A DNA stretch of 64,000 nucleotides from Leptotrichia massiliensis (GTDB taxonomy: Bacteria; Fusobacteriota; Fusobacteriia; Fusobacteriales; Leptotrichiaceae), in the NCBI RefSeq assembly GCF_900104625.1, contig NZ_FNVZ01000005.1, forward strand, positions 806,001-870,000. Reading direction: 5' to 3'. The notes below the pieces were generated by a model that was not told the origin of the DNA, ran no database searches, and saw only the letters and a list, made by a program, of their open reading frames with translations. Below, one piece after another: positions 14,056 through 21,660 of this stretch (position 1 is its first letter; every line of letters starts with the position of its first letter). The position numbers and the translations under genes were made by a program.

Positions 14056-14382
14056 CTCACCTCCAATTATTTTTGTATTTAATCTTAAAATGAAATAACT
14101 TCAAAATTATATCACACTTTTTAAAATTAGGGAATATTGTTTGGAAAAAAAGTGAATTCTATTTTGGGGAACAGAAATAATTAAAATTAATTGATTTTTT
14201 TTGATATTTTCAGCGTTTTCTATTTTTTAGGGGAACAAAAATTAAAAACAAATATTTCCTTGAATTTATATTTGAGATTAGATATAATTTGTTTAGAAAA
14301 AATAGTTTAGAATTAAATTTAAAAGAAATAACTTAAAATTAGGTTTAGAAGTTTAAAAAAGTATTGTTGTAGGAGATTGGCT
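14056..14382. other. Divergent intergenic region between met operon 1 and the WYL gene
   Basis: To the left, a minus-strand TATAAT (14111-14106) with a poor -35 is the likely metN promoter. In the middle, two direct GGGGAACA repeats at 14166-14173 and 14230-14237 lie in similar contexts (TTTnGGGGAACA followed by AAAT-rich DNA). To the right is the plus-strand promoter of the WYL gene (14260-14288). No SAM riboswitch or T-box was recognised, and no ORF. Confidence 0.55.
14260..14288 (+). promoter_or_regulatory. Promoter of the WYL/effector/AAA island
   Basis: TTGAAT (14260-14265), a 17-bp spacer, then TATAAT (14283-14288). It is 95 bp upstream of the WYL start codon. The direct GGGGAACA repeats just upstream are candidate regulator sites. 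Confidence 0.75.
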
Positions 14383-15230
14383 ATGAAGAAGGTTAGAGTT
14401 ACAATTTCGGATTTTATGAATGAAATTATAAAAAGTGATTCGGAGTATTTTAAAATACCTGTGGGAAGAATAGGGAACATAATTTTTAAATATTATATGG
14501 ACAAAAATTTGAATAAAGTGGAATTGGGAAACTTTTCAGGAGAAGTGCTTCAGTTTAACTTAAATAAAAATAATGATGAAATTTTTATGGATACTTTTGT
14601 TAGAAGCAGAGTTGAAACTGAGGCTGAATATTGGAGAAATATAATTTTTACGTATATTAATAATTTACGATATAGACGTGAAGAAATATTATTTGAAAAG
14701 ATTTTTAGGAAAATTAAGGAAGGAATACAGGGTAAGAGAAAGATAAAAATAAAATATCACAAATATATAAGGTTAGTAAATCCGTATTTTGTAAAAGTGG
14801 CAGATGATGAAAACAGATCTTACCTGTTCTGCTACTGTGAAAAGAATAATGATTATAGGAATTACAGAATTTCAGAAATAGAAGAAGTATGGTTTACAAA
14901 TGAAAATATTGAAATAAAAGATAAAAATATATTGATGATGTGTATAAAAATTTTGATCCATTTCTATCGTATAAGAACACAGTTAAAGTTGAATTTACAG
15001 AAAAAGGAGTGGAATTATATGAAAAAGTTTTGACAAACAGACCTAGACTTTTAAATAAGAAAGATAGAATTTACACCTTTGAATGTGATAACAAACTTGC
15101 ATTGGTATATTTTGCACAATTTTTTTCAAATGTAAAAATCTTAGAACCAATTGAATTACAGGAAAAATTAAAAAATGAACTTAAAAGGACAATAGAAATA
15201 TATGAAAATAAGGAGGAAAAAAATGTTTAG
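14383..15230 (+). pseudogene. WYL-domain protein interrupted by a frameshift
   Basis: Reading from the ATG at 14383 (AGGAG ribosome binding site 7 nt upstream) gives an N-terminal region and most of a WYL domain (KIKIKYHKYIRLVNPYFVKV, SYLFCYCEKNNDYRNYRIS). The frame then derails at about 14915-14935 and ends at 15033. The remainder continues in another frame (14940-15230), with a typical WYL C-terminus: YKNFDPFLSYKNTVKVEFTE, ALVYFAQFFSNVKILEPIEL. The break lies in an A/T-rich tract (AAAAATATATTGATG), where two extra bases or one missing base would restore one 282-aa protein. It could be a pseudogene, a sequencing error or a phase-variable tract. The end overlaps the next gene's start. Confidence 0.75.
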
Positions 15231-16959
15231 ATTAAGAGGGAGCAGAAGAAGAAAAACGGAGGAAATTATCAAAAAATTTTTAAAAAGTTATGCTCAAAAT
15301 GAGAAAAGTGAAAATAAAAAGGATTTGAGAAGCTGGTTAATTTTTGAATTGCAAAATGAACTAGTGGTAAAGAAGCCAGAGGAAATAGAAAAAATGGCTG
15401 ATGAACTTATGAAAGGAGTTGAAATTTATTTTGACAAGAAAAAGGAAGTGGAAAAATATCAGAAAGTTGGTATAAGCAGCAGTGATTATGTGGGAGATGT
15501 GATACTGGATAAAATTTCGGAAGATGTAATAAATGCGGAAGTTGTGGATAGACAGCAAATTATAAGGGATATGAAGGAAAGCAGTGAAATTTTAGCAAAT
15601 TACAATGAGGCAATGATATATGAAGCGGCTGCAATAAATGATCCACAAGTAGTGGCAAATACATTAAGTGCAGCTAAAGCAAATGTTTATGTTGACAATG
15701 TAAATTTAACTATAGGCAAGTCAAATGAAGAAATTTTGTCAGCACTTACAACTAAAACTGGAGAAATAAGCCAAAATCCTAATTTAGATGGATTTATATT
15801 TGAAGAACGTCACGCTGGAACATTTAATATAGATGCGGCAGTTAAAGAAAAAAACTACTATGCAAAGGCATTAAAGCCAGAAATAGGCGAAACTTATGGA
15901 AAAAATTCGATTGATATGACAATAGAAGATTCTGGCAAGATTGTAAGAAAATATCAGGCAAAAGCCTATAAAAATGCCAATGAAACTGCAAAATCATTTT
16001 ATGACAGACAGCAAGGTTACAAATATAAATTTCAGTCAAAATTAGTTCCGTCAGATCAGACTGGAGATATTCCAAATGCAGTAGATAAGCTGAAATTTGG
16101 AGAAGTGGAAAGTAAAAATATAAGTAAAGAAGAAATAAAAAATATTCAGGAAAAATACCAGTCTGGCGACAAAGAAGCAGTAAAATTCAGTTTTGAAAAA
16201 GATGTAGACGTTCTTGCAATAAGCAAACAGATAGGAAAACAGGCTGTAATCAATGGAACTATGGGAGTTGGTATTGGAATGGCTTTGGATGTTGGAACAA
16301 AACTTGTTTCTGGAGAAGAAGTGGAAGTTGCTGAAGTAATCGAGGCTGGAGTGAAGACTGGAACTTCAATGGGACTTTCAACAGCAGTTGCTGGAGGAAT
16401 AAGGGTTGCAGTTGAAAAAAATGTTCTACCAAAAGTTCTTACAGGAGTCTTAGCAAATAATAATATTGTTGGAGCAATTGCGGCATCTTCAATTGATATT
16501 ATAGGAACAGCGTTTAAATTAGGTTCGGGTGAAATAAGTCTAGGAGAGGCGACAAAAAGGGTAGGAACGTCAGTAGGCTCTGCTTATGGAGCGATAGTTG
16601 CTTCAAATGCTGGCTTTATAGGTGGAATGGCAGTGGCTGGAGCAATTGGGCTGGGAGCATTGGGAGTTGCAGGAGCAGTTGTTGGTGGAGCAGTGGCACT
16701 TGCGGCAGGAGCAGTATGTGGAATAGTGGGAAGTAAAGTTGGCGGAGCGATAGCAAAAGGAGTGGGAACTATTGCAAAACCTGTAATTGATGGTTCAACT
16801 GAAATAGTAAAAAAAGGGACAGAGGCAGTAAAAAACGTTGCAAAAGGAGCATGGGAAGGAGTGAAAGCAGTAGCTTCAGGTGTAAAAGCAGTAGGAAGTG
16901 CCTTAAGTTCGGCAGTTGGAGCAGTAGGAAGTTTTATTGGAGGATTATTTGGCTGGTAA
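15223..16959 (+). CDS. Candidate membrane-active effector with glycine-rich C-terminus (578 aa, function unknown)
   Basis: I do not recognise a named family. The N-terminus (1-130) is charged and helical. The middle (about 190-300) holds FEERHAGTFNIDAA, then SIDMTIEDSGKIVRKYQAKAY; D231 and Q245-A-K247 have the spacing of the D...QxK active site of Mrr-like PD-(D/E)XK nucleases, a weak resemblance. The C-terminal 220 residues are Gly/Ala-rich hydrophobic repeats (GAIGLGALGVAGAVVGGAVA and others), like the glycine-zipper segments of pore-forming proteins, ending GSFIGGLFGW. I start at ATG 15223, after AAGGAGG, not 21 bp earlier. It lies between a WYL gene and the AAA-FGE gene and is probably co-transcribed with both. 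Confidence 0.7.
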   Translation: MFRLRGSRRRKTEEIIKKFLKSYAQNEKSENKKDLRSWLIFELQNELVVKKPEEIEKMADELMKGVEIYFDKKKEVEKYQKVGISSSDYVGDVILDKISEDVINAEVVDRQQIIRDMKESSEILANYNEAMIYEAAAINDPQVVANTLSAAKANVYVDNVNLTIGKSNEEILSALTTKTGEISQNPNLDGFIFEERHAGTFNIDAAVKEKNYYAKALKPEIGETYGKNSIDMTIEDSGKIVRKYQAKAYKNANETAKSFYDRQQGYKYKFQSKLVPSDQTGDIPNAVDKLKFGEVESKNISKEEIKNIQEKYQSGDKEAVKFSFEKDVDVLAISKQIGKQAVINGTMGVGIGMALDVGTKLVSGEEVEVAEVIEAGVKTGTSMGLSTAVAGGIRVAVEKNVLPKVLTGVLANNNIVGAIAASSIDIIGTAFKLGSGEISLGEATKRVGTSVGSAYGAIVASNAGFIGGMAVAGAIGLGALGVAGAVVGGAVALAAGAVCGIVGSKVGGAIAKGVGTIAKPVIDGSTEIVKKGTEAVKNVAKGAWEGVKAVASGVKAVGSALSSAVGAVGSFIGGLFGW

Positions 16960-17092: not shown

Positions 17093-19408
17093 ATGGAAAC
17101 AAATTTATCAAAATATTTAAGGGCAAGAAGACCTATAATTTGGGTACACAGTGGAGATTATAAGGAAGTTGACACAATTGTGAAGGAGGCGACTAAAGAA
17201 TATGAAAATAAGGCGATTTTTGAATACAGGGCCTTTGGAGTTGTGAATTTTGAAACGAAGGTTAAAAGTGATGAAATTGTGGATTTGTATAGTTTTTTAA
17301 ATATTCTGTTTTCTGAAGGTGTTAAAACTAATGTGTTTTTGATAATTAAGAATGCAGAAGAAGAAATGAAAGATGCTAAAAATATTGCACTTATAAAGAA
17401 AATAGCAGAAACTAGATATTCAAATTCAGATTATAATTTTACAGTGATTGTAGTAACAGAAGTGGAAACAGTGCCGAAGGATTTGGAAAAATTTACTTCG
17501 ATACTTGATCTTCCAAACATGACAAAAGACGAGATTGAAAAATACATTTGGAACTTTGCTAAAGAAAATAATGTGAATGTGGATAAAAATGATGTTGGGG
17601 AAGTTGCAATTTCGTTAAAAGGATTGACAAAACTGGAAATAGATCACGTTCTGAATATGATAATTGAATCTAAGAATAATATTTCAATTTCTGGAAGAGA
17701 TATAATCATTCGTGAAAAAGGACAAATAATTAAAAAATCTTCAATTTTGGAAATTATTGATTTTAAGGAAAAAATTGAAGAAATTGGTGGACTTGAAGGG
17801 CTGAAAGAATGGTTAAGTTCTAAGGCACAAGTATTTAGAAGACTGGATGAAGCCAAGAAATTTGGAGTGGATACGCCAAAAGGAGTATTGCTTGTGGGAA
17901 TGCCGGGCTGTGGTAAAAGTTTGGCGGCAAAAGCAAGTGCAAGATTGTTTAATGTTCCATTATTAAGGCTGGATATAGGAAGACTTTTGGGAAAATACGT
18001 TGGAGAATCAGAACACAATATGAGAGTGGCACTAAAAACAGCAGAATCAATAAGTCCGTGCATTTTATGGATAGATGAAATAGAAAAAGCCTTTGCAGGA
18101 ATAGATCAAAATGGTGGAGCAAGCGACATAACAAAACGTCTATTTGGACAATTTTTGACTTGGTTACAGGAAAAAGAAAACACGGTATTTGTAGTAGCAA
18201 CAGCCAACGATATAACAGCCTTTCCGCCAGAATTTCTAAGAAAAGGACGATTTGATGAAGTATTTTTCATAGACTTCCCAAATGAGAAAGAAAGAGAAAA
18301 AATATTTGAAATTCACCTTGAAAAAAGAGGAAAAATGTCAGATGATATAAATTTAAAAGAACTGGCAGAAGAAACAGAAGGCTACTGTGGTGCCGACATA
18401 GAAGAAATCGTTAAAAACGCAGTTGAAAATAAATTTATACTAGAAACTGAAAATGAAGAAGATAAGAAAATCACAACAAATAATTTATTAGAAGCAACTA
18501 AAAGTATAGATTCTTTATCGAATATTTTATCAGATAAAATAGATGTTTTAAAAAAGAGCTACAAAAAATTCAAAATAAAATCAGCTTCTCAAAAAATAAA
18601 AAATGGTAAAAGAATAGATGGAAAATCTACATTCAAAGATATGGTTATAGTAAATGGAGGAAAATATACACCATCATTCTTTAATGAAGAAAGAGAAGTT
18701 TGCAATTTAGAAGTTTGTAAATATCCAACAACACAAGATATGTGGATGGAAGTAATGAAGAAAAATCCATCAAAATTTAAAGGTGGAAGACGTCCAGTTG
18801 AGAATATATCTTGGTGGCGCGCTTTGGAGTTTTGTAATAAATTGAGTGAAAAACATGGATTAAAACCAGTGTATGACTTGAGCCGAAAAGAAAAAGGCAT
18901 ATTAAGAATACATCAATCAAATGGCAAAATAGAGTACCCAAATGTAGCAGATTTTAGAAAAACTGAAGGATTTAGATTGCCAACAGAAGTTGAATGGGAA
19001 TGGTTTGCAAGAGGTGGAGAAATTGCAATACAAGATGGGACATTTAATTATAAGTATTCAGGCAGTAATAATGTATATGAAGTTGCTTGGAATAGAAATA
19101 ATTCAGAAAAGCGTACTCATGATGTAGGAATGAAGAAACCGAATCAATTGGGACTTTATGATTGTAGCGGAAATATTTGGGAGTGGTGTTATGATACATC
19201 TGGTGATGGATATATACCTGAAAAAACACCATACAGGTATGATGAAAGTGTATCAGGTAATAGATTAAAAGGAGGGTCTTTTTATAGTGATACAGAATAT
19301 TGTAGTGTATTTAATTGTAGTAGAGATAAATTAATTTGTAAAATATGGAGTGGTAGCGAATGGGTTCGACTCTGTCCTACAAGCTTCCGTATTGTTAGAA
19401 CAATTTAA
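17093..19408 (+). CDS. AAA+ ATPase fused to a C-terminal FGE-sulfatase (SUMF1-like) domain
   Basis: This is a 771-aa protein. An N-terminal region (1-230, TNLSKYLRARRPIIWVHSGD) resembles that of AAA proteins with an ATPase-like first half. An FtsH/Cdc48-type AAA+ module follows: Walker A GMPGCGKS (269-276), Walker B ILWIDEIEKAF (D328, E329), sensor FVVATANDI, and arginine finger RKGRFDE. From about 513 comes an FGE-sulfatase domain (FKDMVIVNGGKYTPS, FRLPTEVEWEWFARGG, GLYDCSGNIWEWCYD, RLKGGSFYSD, SFRIVRTI). I start at 17093, after AGGAGG. Such lectin-like FGE domains act as binding modules. The last about 45 residues are unusually Cys-rich and deviate from the family where hypervariable repeats sit. 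No formylglycine-type sulfatase is nearby. Confidence 0.85.
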   Translation: METNLSKYLRARRPIIWVHSGDYKEVDTIVKEATKEYENKAIFEYRAFGVVNFETKVKSDEIVDLYSFLNILFSEGVKTNVFLIIKNAEEEMKDAKNIALIKKIAETRYSNSDYNFTVIVVTEVETVPKDLEKFTSILDLPNMTKDEIEKYIWNFAKENNVNVDKNDVGEVAISLKGLTKLEIDHVLNMIIESKNNISISGRDIIIREKGQIIKKSSILEIIDFKEKIEEIGGLEGLKEWLSSKAQVFRRLDEAKKFGVDTPKGVLLVGMPGCGKSLAAKASARLFNVPLLRLDIGRLLGKYVGESEHNMRVALKTAESISPCILWIDEIEKAFAGIDQNGGASDITKRLFGQFLTWLQEKENTVFVVATANDITAFPPEFLRKGRFDEVFFIDFPNEKEREKIFEIHLEKRGKMSDDINLKELAEETEGYCGADIEEIVKNAVENKFILETENEEDKKITTNNLLEATKSIDSLSNILSDKIDVLKKSYKKFKIKSASQKIKNGKRIDGKSTFKDMVIVNGGKYTPSFFNEEREVCNLEVCKYPTTQDMWMEVMKKNPSKFKGGRRPVENISWWRALEFCNKLSEKHGLKPVYDLSRKEKGILRIHQSNGKIEYPNVADFRKTEGFRLPTEVEWEWFARGGEIAIQDGTFNYKYSGSNNVYEVAWNRNNSEKRTHDVGMKKPNQLGLYDCSGNIWEWCYDTSGDGYIPEKTPYRYDESVSGNRLKGGSFYSDTEYCSVFNCSRDKLICKIWSGSEWVRLCPTSFRIVRTI

Positions 19409-19534
19409 TTTTTATGATTCTTCATTTTTTAGGTTTTGAAACAGGGGGGATTTTGACTAAAAAGGGAAAGAAAATAACGGAAATGGGGGATTGAGCAGGT
19501 TTTGGGATTTATTAAAAAAAGTTTAAAAATGTGG

Positions 19535-19563
19535 TTGACAAAAAGTAACAAAAGTGTTATAAA
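19535..19563 (+). promoter_or_regulatory. Strong promoter upstream of the Abi_2 gene
   Basis: TTGACA (19535-19540), a 17-bp spacer, then TATAAA (19558-19563). The start would be near 19570, about 120 nt before the Abi_2 start codon, leaving room for a structured leader or small RNA. Confidence 0.8.
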
Positions 19564-19569
19564 TAATAT

Positions 19570-19668
19570 GTGGATCGTACTATATCAATGATTTCTTAAA
19601 TAGAAGTCGATATAGGCTGAATTATAATTTAAATTAATATAAAGGCTCTCTGTTTGGAGGGCTTTTCT
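19570..19668 (+). ncRNA. Structured RNA candidate upstream of Abi_2
   Basis: After the strong promoter a long hairpin spans 19580-19615. CTATATC pairs with GATATAG, and after a 3-nt bulge (AAT) GATTTCT pairs with AGAAGTC (one G-T) around the loop TAAAT. A second hairpin at 19641-19666 (AAAGGCTCTC with GGAGGGCTTT) is followed by a short T-run and looks like an intrinsic terminator or attenuator 26 nt before the GTG start. This is either a separate about 100-nt RNA or an attenuating leader. A conserved motif called abiF RNA has been reported next to abiF-like genes; I cannot test the match here. Confidence 0.5.
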
Positions 19669-19692
19669 GATATTTTGGAAAGGAGATTTTTT

Positions 19693-20631
19693 GTGGATCA
19701 GCCATTTAAAAAGTTCAAAGAGCAGGAAATGATTATATCAAGCAGAATGAGCATTGATAAAGATACAATTTCTATTTTGAAAAGATTTAATTACTATTCT
19801 ATTATAAATTTTTATAAAGCTCCTTTTTTAGAAAAAAATAAAAATTTGAGAGGAAAAGATAAATACATTGAAAATTTTAAATTTAAATATTTAAAAAGTC
19901 TTCATGATTTTGATAGGGAATTGAGAATTTTATTTTTTGATAATTTGACATTGCTTGAAAGTTTTTTCAAAACAGCTATTTCTTATTATTTTTCTGAAAC
20001 AAACGGAATTTTGAAAAAAAATTCGTATCTTCTTTTAGAGAATTACAATACTGGAAAGAAAAATTCAAATATTCTTAAAATTTCAATGGTAGTGAATACG
20101 TTGAAAAAGATAAAAAAAGATAATGAAAAAATGATAATAAGACATTATAATACTACAAAAGATAATATTCCTTTTTGGATTATAATTCACTATTTAACTT
20201 TTGGAGATATTAGCAAACTATATTCTTGTTTACATAAAAATGTATATGATAAAATTTGCGATCATTTTAAAAATTTGTATAAAGAAGAATATGGCAATCT
20301 TCCAAATATAACTCATTCATTTGTAAGAACTTATTTAGTTGCTAGCTCTCATTTTAGAAATGTTGCTGCCCATAATGAAAGGTTATACGAATTTTCTTCG
20401 AGAGAAACTGTTAATATAAAAAAAGTTAGCGATATGACATCAAACAGAAATCAAAAACTCTTTACGATTTACGAAGGATTAAAATTATTTCTTTCTAAAG
20501 AAGAATTTGATGCATTAACAGAAAAATTAAAATTGATTATCAAAACTTTGGAAGATAAATTAGAAAATATTGTAAATATAAACGATATTTTATCAAGAAT
20601 GGATTTTCCAAATGATTGGCATAAAAATTAA
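19693..20631 (+). CDS. Abi_2 (AbiD/AbiF-like) HEPN-type abortive infection protein
   Basis: This is a 312-aa protein of the Abi_2 family: DQPFKKFKEQEMIISSRM at the N-terminus, ILKRFNYYSIINFYKAPFL, LKSLHDFDRELRILFFDNLT, and the C-terminal HEPN motif SSHFRNVAAHNERLY. In that motif R222-N-V-A-A-H227 fits the RNase consensus R-X4-H. HEPN Abi proteins are thought to cleave RNA during phage infection or as toxins, and AbiF-type proteins have been linked to the ancestry of Cas13. I start at GTG 19693, with AAAGGAG just upstream, rather than 39 bp earlier. Structured RNA candidates with strong promoters flank it on both sides, so a protein-RNA system is likely. Confidence 0.85.
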   Translation: MDQPFKKFKEQEMIISSRMSIDKDTISILKRFNYYSIINFYKAPFLEKNKNLRGKDKYIENFKFKYLKSLHDFDRELRILFFDNLTLLESFFKTAISYYFSETNGILKKNSYLLLENYNTGKKNSNILKISMVVNTLKKIKKDNEKMIIRHYNTTKDNIPFWIIIHYLTFGDISKLYSCLHKNVYDKICDHFKNLYKEEYGNLPNITHSFVRTYLVASSHFRNVAAHNERLYEFSSRETVNIKKVSDMTSNRNQKLFTIYEGLKLFLSKEEFDALTEKLKLIIKTLEDKLENIVNINDILSRMDFPNDWHKN

Positions 20632-20657
20632 CTTTTGTCAAAAAATAAAGAATGTAG

Positions 20658-20686
20658 TTGACAAAATATTTAACATATATTATAAT
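20658..20686 (+). promoter_or_regulatory. Near-consensus promoter downstream of Abi_2
   Basis: TTGACA (20658-20663), 17 bp, then TATAAT (20681-20686): a perfect sigma-70 consensus. No ORF follows within the next 400 bp other than infC, which has its own promoter. The transcript therefore appears to be the small RNA at 20693-20798. Confidence 0.9.
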
Positions 20687-20692
20687 TTATTT

Positions 20693-20798
20693 ACATTAAA
20701 GCCTTATTTATTTAAGGAAAGAATGGTAATAAAAGATTAAGAGCCTTATTCGTTAAGGACTACCGAAGGTATATTCAAAAAATATGCCTGTTTTTTTT
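20693..20798 (+). ncRNA. Small structured RNA candidate (~105 nt) downstream of Abi_2
   Basis: A consensus promoter ends at 20686 and a clear intrinsic terminator ends the region: AGGTATATT (20767-20775) pairs with AATATGCCT (20781-20789, one G-T), then eight T. Between them are two copies, 42 nt apart, of a CCTTA/TAAGG hairpin (20702-20717 and 20744-20758). The second is enclosed by GGTA (20725-20728) pairing with TACC (20761-20764). The RNA has no ORF. Its position right behind an Abi_2 HEPN gene suggests an RNA partner or antitoxin. The part around 20734-20764 (GATTAAGA, hairpin, AAGGACTA) resembles in layout a Leptotrichia Cas13a repeat, recalled from memory. Confidence 0.75.
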
Positions 20799-21121: not shown

Positions 21122-21135
21122 AGGAGGTGTTTTTT

Positions 21136-21660
21136 ATAAGAGGAAATAACCGATCTGATGAGCCAAGAATGAATGAGCGAATTAGGGCAAGAGAAATTAG
21201 AGTTGTTGGTGATGATGGAGAACAGTTTGGAGTAATGTCAGCTAGAGATGCGTTAGCACTTGCAGCAGAAAAAGAATTGGACTTAGTTGAAATTTCACCA
21301 AATGCAACACCGCCTGTATGCAAAATTATGGACTATGGAAAATTCAAGTATGAGAAAACGAAGAAAGACAAGGAAAATAAGAAAAAACAAAAAAATGTCG
21401 TTATTAAAGAGATTAGAATTAAACCTCATATTGACGAGCATGATAAAGAAACAAAAATTTCTCAAATTGAAAAATTTATAGCCAAGGAGCATAAGGTAAA
21501 AGTCAGCCTAAGACTTACAGGTAGAGAAAGATTACATGCAGAATCTGCTATTAAAGTATTAGACGAGTTTGCAAGCCATTTTGAAGAAACTGCAACAGTT
21601 GAGAAAAAATACGGAAAAGAACAGGTTCAAAAATTTATTTTATTATCGCCTAAAAAATAA
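21136..21660 (+). CDS. infC: Translation initiation factor IF-3
   Basis: This is IF-3 (174 aa from this start): the N-domain [40 protein letters not shown], a charged linker [12 protein letters not shown], then the C-domain [15 protein letters not shown] and [14 protein letters not shown]-3 binds the 30S subunit, blocks 50S joining and proofreads start codons. The SD AGGAGG (21122-21127) is 8 nt before an AUA codon at 21136. A GTG at 21127 lies inside the SD and cannot serve, and the next ATG (21169) is 41 nt downstream of the SD. A rare AUA start suits the known autocontrol of infC by non-AUG discrimination. First gene of infC-rpmI-rplT. Confidence 0.95.

Follow-up and report, generated by a model that had tools for sequence, protein, structure and literature searches.

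A hypervariable C-terminal segment in a TvpA-type AAA-FGE protein of Leptotrichia species, with no diversity-generating retroelement found in the Leptotrichia massiliensis genome

We analyzed a 64,000-nucleotide stretch of the Leptotrichia massiliensis genome (GCF_900104625.1, contig NZ_FNVZ01000005.1, positions 806,001 to 870,000 of the forward strand), hereafter the window. It encodes a protein in which an AAA ATPase is fused to an FGE-sulfatase domain with a C-type-lectin fold, referred to here as AAA-FGE. The C-terminal end of this 785-amino-acid protein, RLKGGSFYSDTEYCSVFNCSRDKLICKIWSGSEWVRLCPTSFRIVRTI, contains a hypervariable segment (VR) and a conserved 3' anchor. These features and the neighboring genes are listed in Table 1. 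The AAA core matched the PADLOC model of the AAA ATPase IetA (E = 1.7e-28), and the likeness stops there, as the PADLOC matches of the protein (IetA/TRIP13) were confined to the AAA region. The NCBIfam anti-phage ATPase model scored 93 bits, far below its cut-off of 510. The ATPase may be Ycf46-like.

Table 1 Features of the AAA-FGE locus, in window coordinates.
Feature	Coordinates	Strand	Basis
WYL-domain regulator, upstream neighbor	14377..15033	+	Pfam WYL; synteny
Partner gene, with E..H...FN ... D ... YQxK region and Gly/Ala-rich C-terminus	15202..16959	+	Directly upstream of the AAA-FGE gene
AAA-FGE gene (P0001), 785 aa	17051..19408	+	ORF list; Pfam AAA (279-408) and FGE-sulfatase (555-758)
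Second polymorphic block, N-terminal region of the AAA-FGE gene, two allele classes	17240..17715	+	Nucleotide identity 58-83% between classes; 128 split sites
AAA ATPase core, residues 279-408	17885..18274	+	Pfam; 98-100% identity among five Leptotrichia over residues 241-480
FGE-sulfatase / C-type-lectin-fold domain, residues 555-758	18713..19324	+	Pfam; best PDB sequence match TvpA 2y3c; Foldseek 5aoh, 2y3c
Hypervariable segment (VR), codons 744-778, flanked by GGS and FRIVRTI	19280..19384	+	Lowest-identity window of the gene (0.12)
Conserved 3' anchor FRIVRTI, directly after the VR	19385..19405	+	FRIVRTI in 5/6 orthologues, FRVVRTV in 1/6
AbiD / Abi_2 gene, swappable 3' slot	19654..20631	+	Pfam Abi_2; PADLOC AbiD
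infC, conserved right border of the locus	21127..21660	+	Synteny

We compared the FGE domain alone with PDB sequences. The first match was TvpA of Treponema denticola (2y3c, E = 2.1e-37), and the best chain named formylglycine-generating enzyme followed at E = 1.5e-9. A 15-sequence profile returned the same order (2.9e-61 for TvpA and 1e-25 for formylglycine-generating enzyme). Foldseek, run with a predicted model of the domain, ranked CarF (5aoh) first and TvpA (2y3c) second. The core of this model was fine, but pLDDT fell under 50 across domain residues 186-251, VR included; because the model is unreliable there, the exposure of the VR tip is borrowed from TvpA. The variable region of TvpA is C-terminal according to PMC4891356, and the VR of AAA-FGE, lying between GGSW and GFR, occupies the matching position in the same FGE / C-type-lectin domain. 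A sequence-only reading of the window had proposed a C-terminus of the kind that diversity-generating retroelements (DGRs) rewrite, and the domain indeed belongs to a class that DGRs diversify. AAA-FGE differs from TvpA in several respects: TvpA is predicted to be a lipoprotein and has a reverse transcriptase (RT) and a template serving it, whereas the FGE domain here is fused to an AAA ATPase, neither DGR component was found, and the VR varies in length.

The gene was found in the L. massiliensis genome, in four other Leptotrichia genomes (G002, G004, G008 and G010) and in G055, which belongs to another family of the same order; with one genome per species, variation was measured between species. 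Over the matched part, the orthologues of the four other Leptotrichia genomes were 82-91% identical, and that of G055 was 71% identical. Among the five Leptotrichia, mean pairwise identity in the VR was 0.12 (gaps scored as mismatches), against 0.59 in the next-lowest region and a gene median of 0.93. This confirms that the C-terminal segment is hypervariable between Leptotrichia species, which the sequence-only reading had merely inferred. In the ten pairs of these five genomes, identity was 98-100% for the AAA part and 79-90% for the portion of the FGE domain that precedes the VR. A codon alignment of the six orthologues showed differences throughout the stretch between GGS and FRIVRTI, with VR lengths of 35 (L. 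massiliensis), 36 (G002), 36 (G010), 31 (G008), 42 (G004) and 26 (G055) codons; VR alignments between diverged alleles are uncertain. Despite these length changes, the reading frame and the 3' anchor (FRIVRTI/FRVVRTV) were preserved in all six, which argues against decay. As a control, we used a pair of sister FGE proteins that stand alone, without an AAA domain (G054/G090), in which 24 of 26 residues of the VR segment were identical, compared with 170 of 213 in the rest of the FGE domain.

If a DGR acted on this C-terminus, as the sequence-only reading had suggested, an RT and a template repeat should be present. Neither was found. The L. massiliensis genome (2.54 Mb, 99.97% complete) gave no match to RVT_1, in a search that did give matches in 3 of 14 control genomes. 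A 51-nucleotide pattern that tolerated a template A opposite any VR base, with up to three mismatches, matched only the gene itself in this genome. BLAST detected no second copy of the VR there, nor in G002, G004, G008 or G010 when queried with the L. massiliensis VR and its flanks. Four of the six full-length AAA-FGE carriers lacked RVT_1, and the RTs classified in two orthologue-carrying relatives are defense or group II intron types (AbiP2-type in G008; Drt8-type and group II intron in G010). Among carriers of more diverged copies, G091 had two RVT_1 matches and G082 one (unclassified). An active DGR was therefore rejected, and with no retroelement in the genome the VR variation probably arose in another way. 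Silent FGE cassettes as VR donors in L. massiliensis were likewise rejected, as the genome holds a single FGE match. For none of the VR alleles did we find a donor. We found no publication linking Leptotrichia with a diversity-generating retroelement.

The variants themselves did not follow the pattern that a DGR produces, in which alleles are of equal length and changes are confined to template-A sites, for the most part the first two positions of NNY codons. VR lengths ranged from 26 to 42 codons, and a hand alignment of the L. massiliensis and G010 VRs on their common framework gave 10, 7 and 6 differences at codon positions 1, 2 and 3, together with one codon of length. In this pair, 9 of 16 changed codons ended in T or C on both sides, compared with 11 of 19 unchanged codons.

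The composition of the segment had been read as a further sign of DGR activity. The four cysteines are real in this Cys-poor proteome (4 of 35 residues, compared with 38 of 14,249 in 18 genes of the window, three of them giant), and the enrichment held even against the Cys frequency of the AAA-FGE gene itself (P ~6e-4). It is not common to the orthologues, whose VRs contain 4, 0, 2, 2, 1 and 1 cysteines. Formylglycine-generating enzymes have conserved catalytic cysteines in their C-terminal segment; no conserved Cys column was present in the VR among the six orthologues or among 15 aligned homologues. The GC content does rise at the very end of the gene (0.43 over the last 44 nucleotides vs. 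0.315 up to position 19261), where a homing site had been envisaged. The corresponding 3' ends of the six orthologues span 0.23 to 0.43, so that the GC-rich end is probably no conserved, IMH-like homing site; the anchor at the 3' end of the VR is conserved, yet it encodes FRIVRTI, and the GC rise is not conserved.

The excess of codons ending in T or C was likewise present (22 of 35 VR codons vs. 165 of 430 preceding codons, Fisher 0.0065). As proof of a DGR we rejected these NNY codons, since they mostly reflect amino-acid composition; a residual synonymous excess remains. For the L. massiliensis VR this excess reached z = 1.78, a value attained by roughly 5% of the stretches of 35 codons in the genes of the window. 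With amino-acid composition corrected, the six orthologue VRs gave z = 1.78, 1.95, 2.19, 2.48, 1.81 and 3.79, and five sister FGEs gave -0.33, -0.33, -0.24, 0.15 and 0.20, that is, no excess. The background for this statistic was the genes of the window, which is only an approximation to codon usage in G055 and in other genera, and the counts leave out two mis-cut rows, G082 (8 codons) and the second row of G004 (128 codons). Such an excess is what a DGR past would leave, and fast change at positions 1 and 2 from NNY-rich codons could produce it too.

These data bear on the possibility that the gene is an orphaned or fossil DGR target, its VR alleles having been written by the DGR of an ancestor or of another host, the RT and template then lost or left behind, and the frozen alleles spread by gene transfer. 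The kinship with the DGR target TvpA, the matching place of the VR, and the synonymous excess seen in all six VRs (z 1.8-3.8) but in none of the five sister FGEs all favor such an origin. There is also a precedent, in that PMC4891356 reports 8 of 17 Treponema denticola isolates with target genes and without a template or RT. A further parallel comes from a Bacteroidales metagenome-assembled genome (L077:7665-10523), where two tandem FGE genes come after a related AAA gene and have C-termini that differ in a classically DGR-like manner. The two VRs are equal in length and differ 10, 8 and 2 times at codon positions 1, 2 and 3; among the 14 codons altered at positions 1-2, a manual count gave 13 that end in a pyrimidine (C/T). 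However, this genome itself has no RVT_1 and no predicted template, and in Leptotrichia the VR lengths differ, the changes between L. massiliensis and G010 fall at all codon positions without favoring NNY codons, and no template-like second copy was found in the five carriers. We therefore regard a fossil DGR target as a doubtful explanation, though one that deserves consideration.

Substitution patterns at the VR pointed to selection. Between L. massiliensis and G010, we counted 19.5 nonsynonymous and 3.5 synonymous changes in the VR, whereas the AAA part had 5.5 and 30.5, respectively (Fisher 5e-7). When the remainder of the FGE domain served as the reference, the difference reached only p = 0.06. 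In the VR of this pair dN was 0.27 and dS 0.23, and with dS at 0.16 in the FGE domain before the VR and 0.24 in the AAA part, there is no clear increase in the synonymous rate. A dN close to dS is also what neutrality would give, were the C-terminus unimportant and simply drifting under relaxed constraint. Three observations make such drift improbable: the frame and anchor were kept in six of six orthologues through length changes of several codons, the VR segment is conserved in sister FGEs, and dN/dS exceeded 1 in several pairs, although these values are noisy. Hardly credible is an active DGR that our searches overlooked in L. massiliensis, in favor of which only the domain class and codon bias speak, given that a 99.97% complete genome yielded no RVT_1 while the positive controls did, an A-tolerant template pattern that found the gene alone, and the lack of a second copy by BLAST.

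Next to selection, the locus bears marks of exchange. Against a background identity near 95% in the locus alignment, the N-terminal block falls into two allele classes, with 99-100% identity within the G010/G004 class. Informative sites grouped G010 with G004 in this block (128 sites), G008 with G004 (87) and L. massiliensis with G010 (56) in the 3' stretch, and G002 with G004 (17) in the infC stretch. These groupings along the locus are mutually incompatible, which means that lineages have exchanged alleles. The 3' slot downstream of the gene (19409-20770, up to infC) also differs in content: AbiD occupies it in L. massiliensis and G010 (90-100% alike), G008 and G004 have a PemK/MazF-like gene there (94-100% alike), and G002 has no ORF of 80 amino acids. 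At the upstream side, the WYL gene has 218 codons in L. massiliensis and about 290 in relatives; in the locus alignment, its length differs by one base near 14872 from that of all four relatives, and the G004 copy is also split, so that the regulator looks frameshifted in two of the five genomes.

We then examined the gene directly upstream of AAA-FGE. Of 98 genomes from the Fusobacteria phylum, 7 contained this partner gene, and it adjoined the AAA gene in all seven. A profile search recovered partner homologues beside an ATPase in 11 of 116 other loci, one of them in L. hongkongensis, and the hosts included Clostridia, Helicobacter, Anaerobiospirillum and Neobacillus, among others. No FGE motif was seen in the ATPases beside these homologues except in L. 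hongkongensis. The partner corresponds to no curated family in Pfam or PADLOC. To the eye, its conserved E..H...FN ... D ... YQxK region appears nuclease-like, and the Gly/Ala-rich end of a Clostridiaceae homologue gave weak Gly-zipper and LeoB matches; the predicted structure of the partner (mean pLDDT 35) was unusable. We found no literature joining a glycine zipper effector, an AAA ATPase and anti-phage activity. The combination of partner, ATPase and AbiD or MazF-like neighbors suggests a conflict system.

Related arrangements have been described. C-type-lectin sensor domains diversified by retroelements occur in putative bacterial conflict systems, according to PMC7159879 and PMC10907252. 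The DGR targets of CPR bacteria in the latter resemble AAA-FGE in fusing an AAA ATPase to a C-type lectin with a variable tip, which does not imply homology of the AAA parts, but those targets have DGRs and none was found for AAA-FGE. The VMAP ternary conflict systems with FGS domains, as presented in PMC7159879, likewise pair a variable FGS domain with a P-loop NTPase and are putative conflict systems. Here, by contrast, the partner is a Gly/Ala-rich protein outside the Pfam and PADLOC families, and none of the eight proteins compared with Pfam matched MoxR, vWA or VMAP.

Taken together, we favor the reading, at a probability of about 0.6, that the VR is a ligand-binding tip of the TvpA type, which probably acts as the sensor in a conserved AAA conflict system of two genes and owes its diversity to selection and to recombination between species. 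Direct support comes from the localized extreme divergence in frame, the varying length, dN close to or above dS, the incompatible splits, and searches that found no RT, template or silent copy. In the mechanism that we propose, the VR would be under diversifying selection while recombination between conserved flanks would exchange alleles in the 3' portion of the gene, and because of these two processes the segment would be hypervariable between species with no rewriting by a retroelement in the L. massiliensis genome. The tip may bind a ligand that changes, such as a component of a phage or of a rival cell; the ATPase may act as a relay for this binding, and the partner encoded next to it would be the putative effector. 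More tentatively, the locus may be an exchangeable sensor-plus-cargo module, in which a sensor domain of the DGR class is hypervariable across the genus without a retroelement, and tip alleles, often together with the downstream AbiD or PemK/MazF gene, are swapped between species at conserved flanks and sharpened by selection, all on a conserved AAA conflict system; this wider picture is possible rather than probable.

The finding is ordinary in parts, as the domain class and the theme of a variable sensor are known, and the missing retroelement is what is unusual. That the same site is equally variable without a retroelement allows a comparison with DGR cases. It also raises the question of whether the fold itself is the target of selection, with DGRs as one route among others that feed it. 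The analysis further marks out a conserved AAA system of two genes, which occurs in Fusobacteria, Clostridia, Helicobacter and other groups and whose putative sensor is now open to testing.

Phages and viral contigs carried AAA relatives, as well as FGE matches of less than 60% identity, and an Exiguobacterium plasmid carried a related ATPase near an AAA / McrC pair. Elsewhere in the window, three consecutive tandem ORFs of about 2,390-2,500 codons each span positions 26603-49039.
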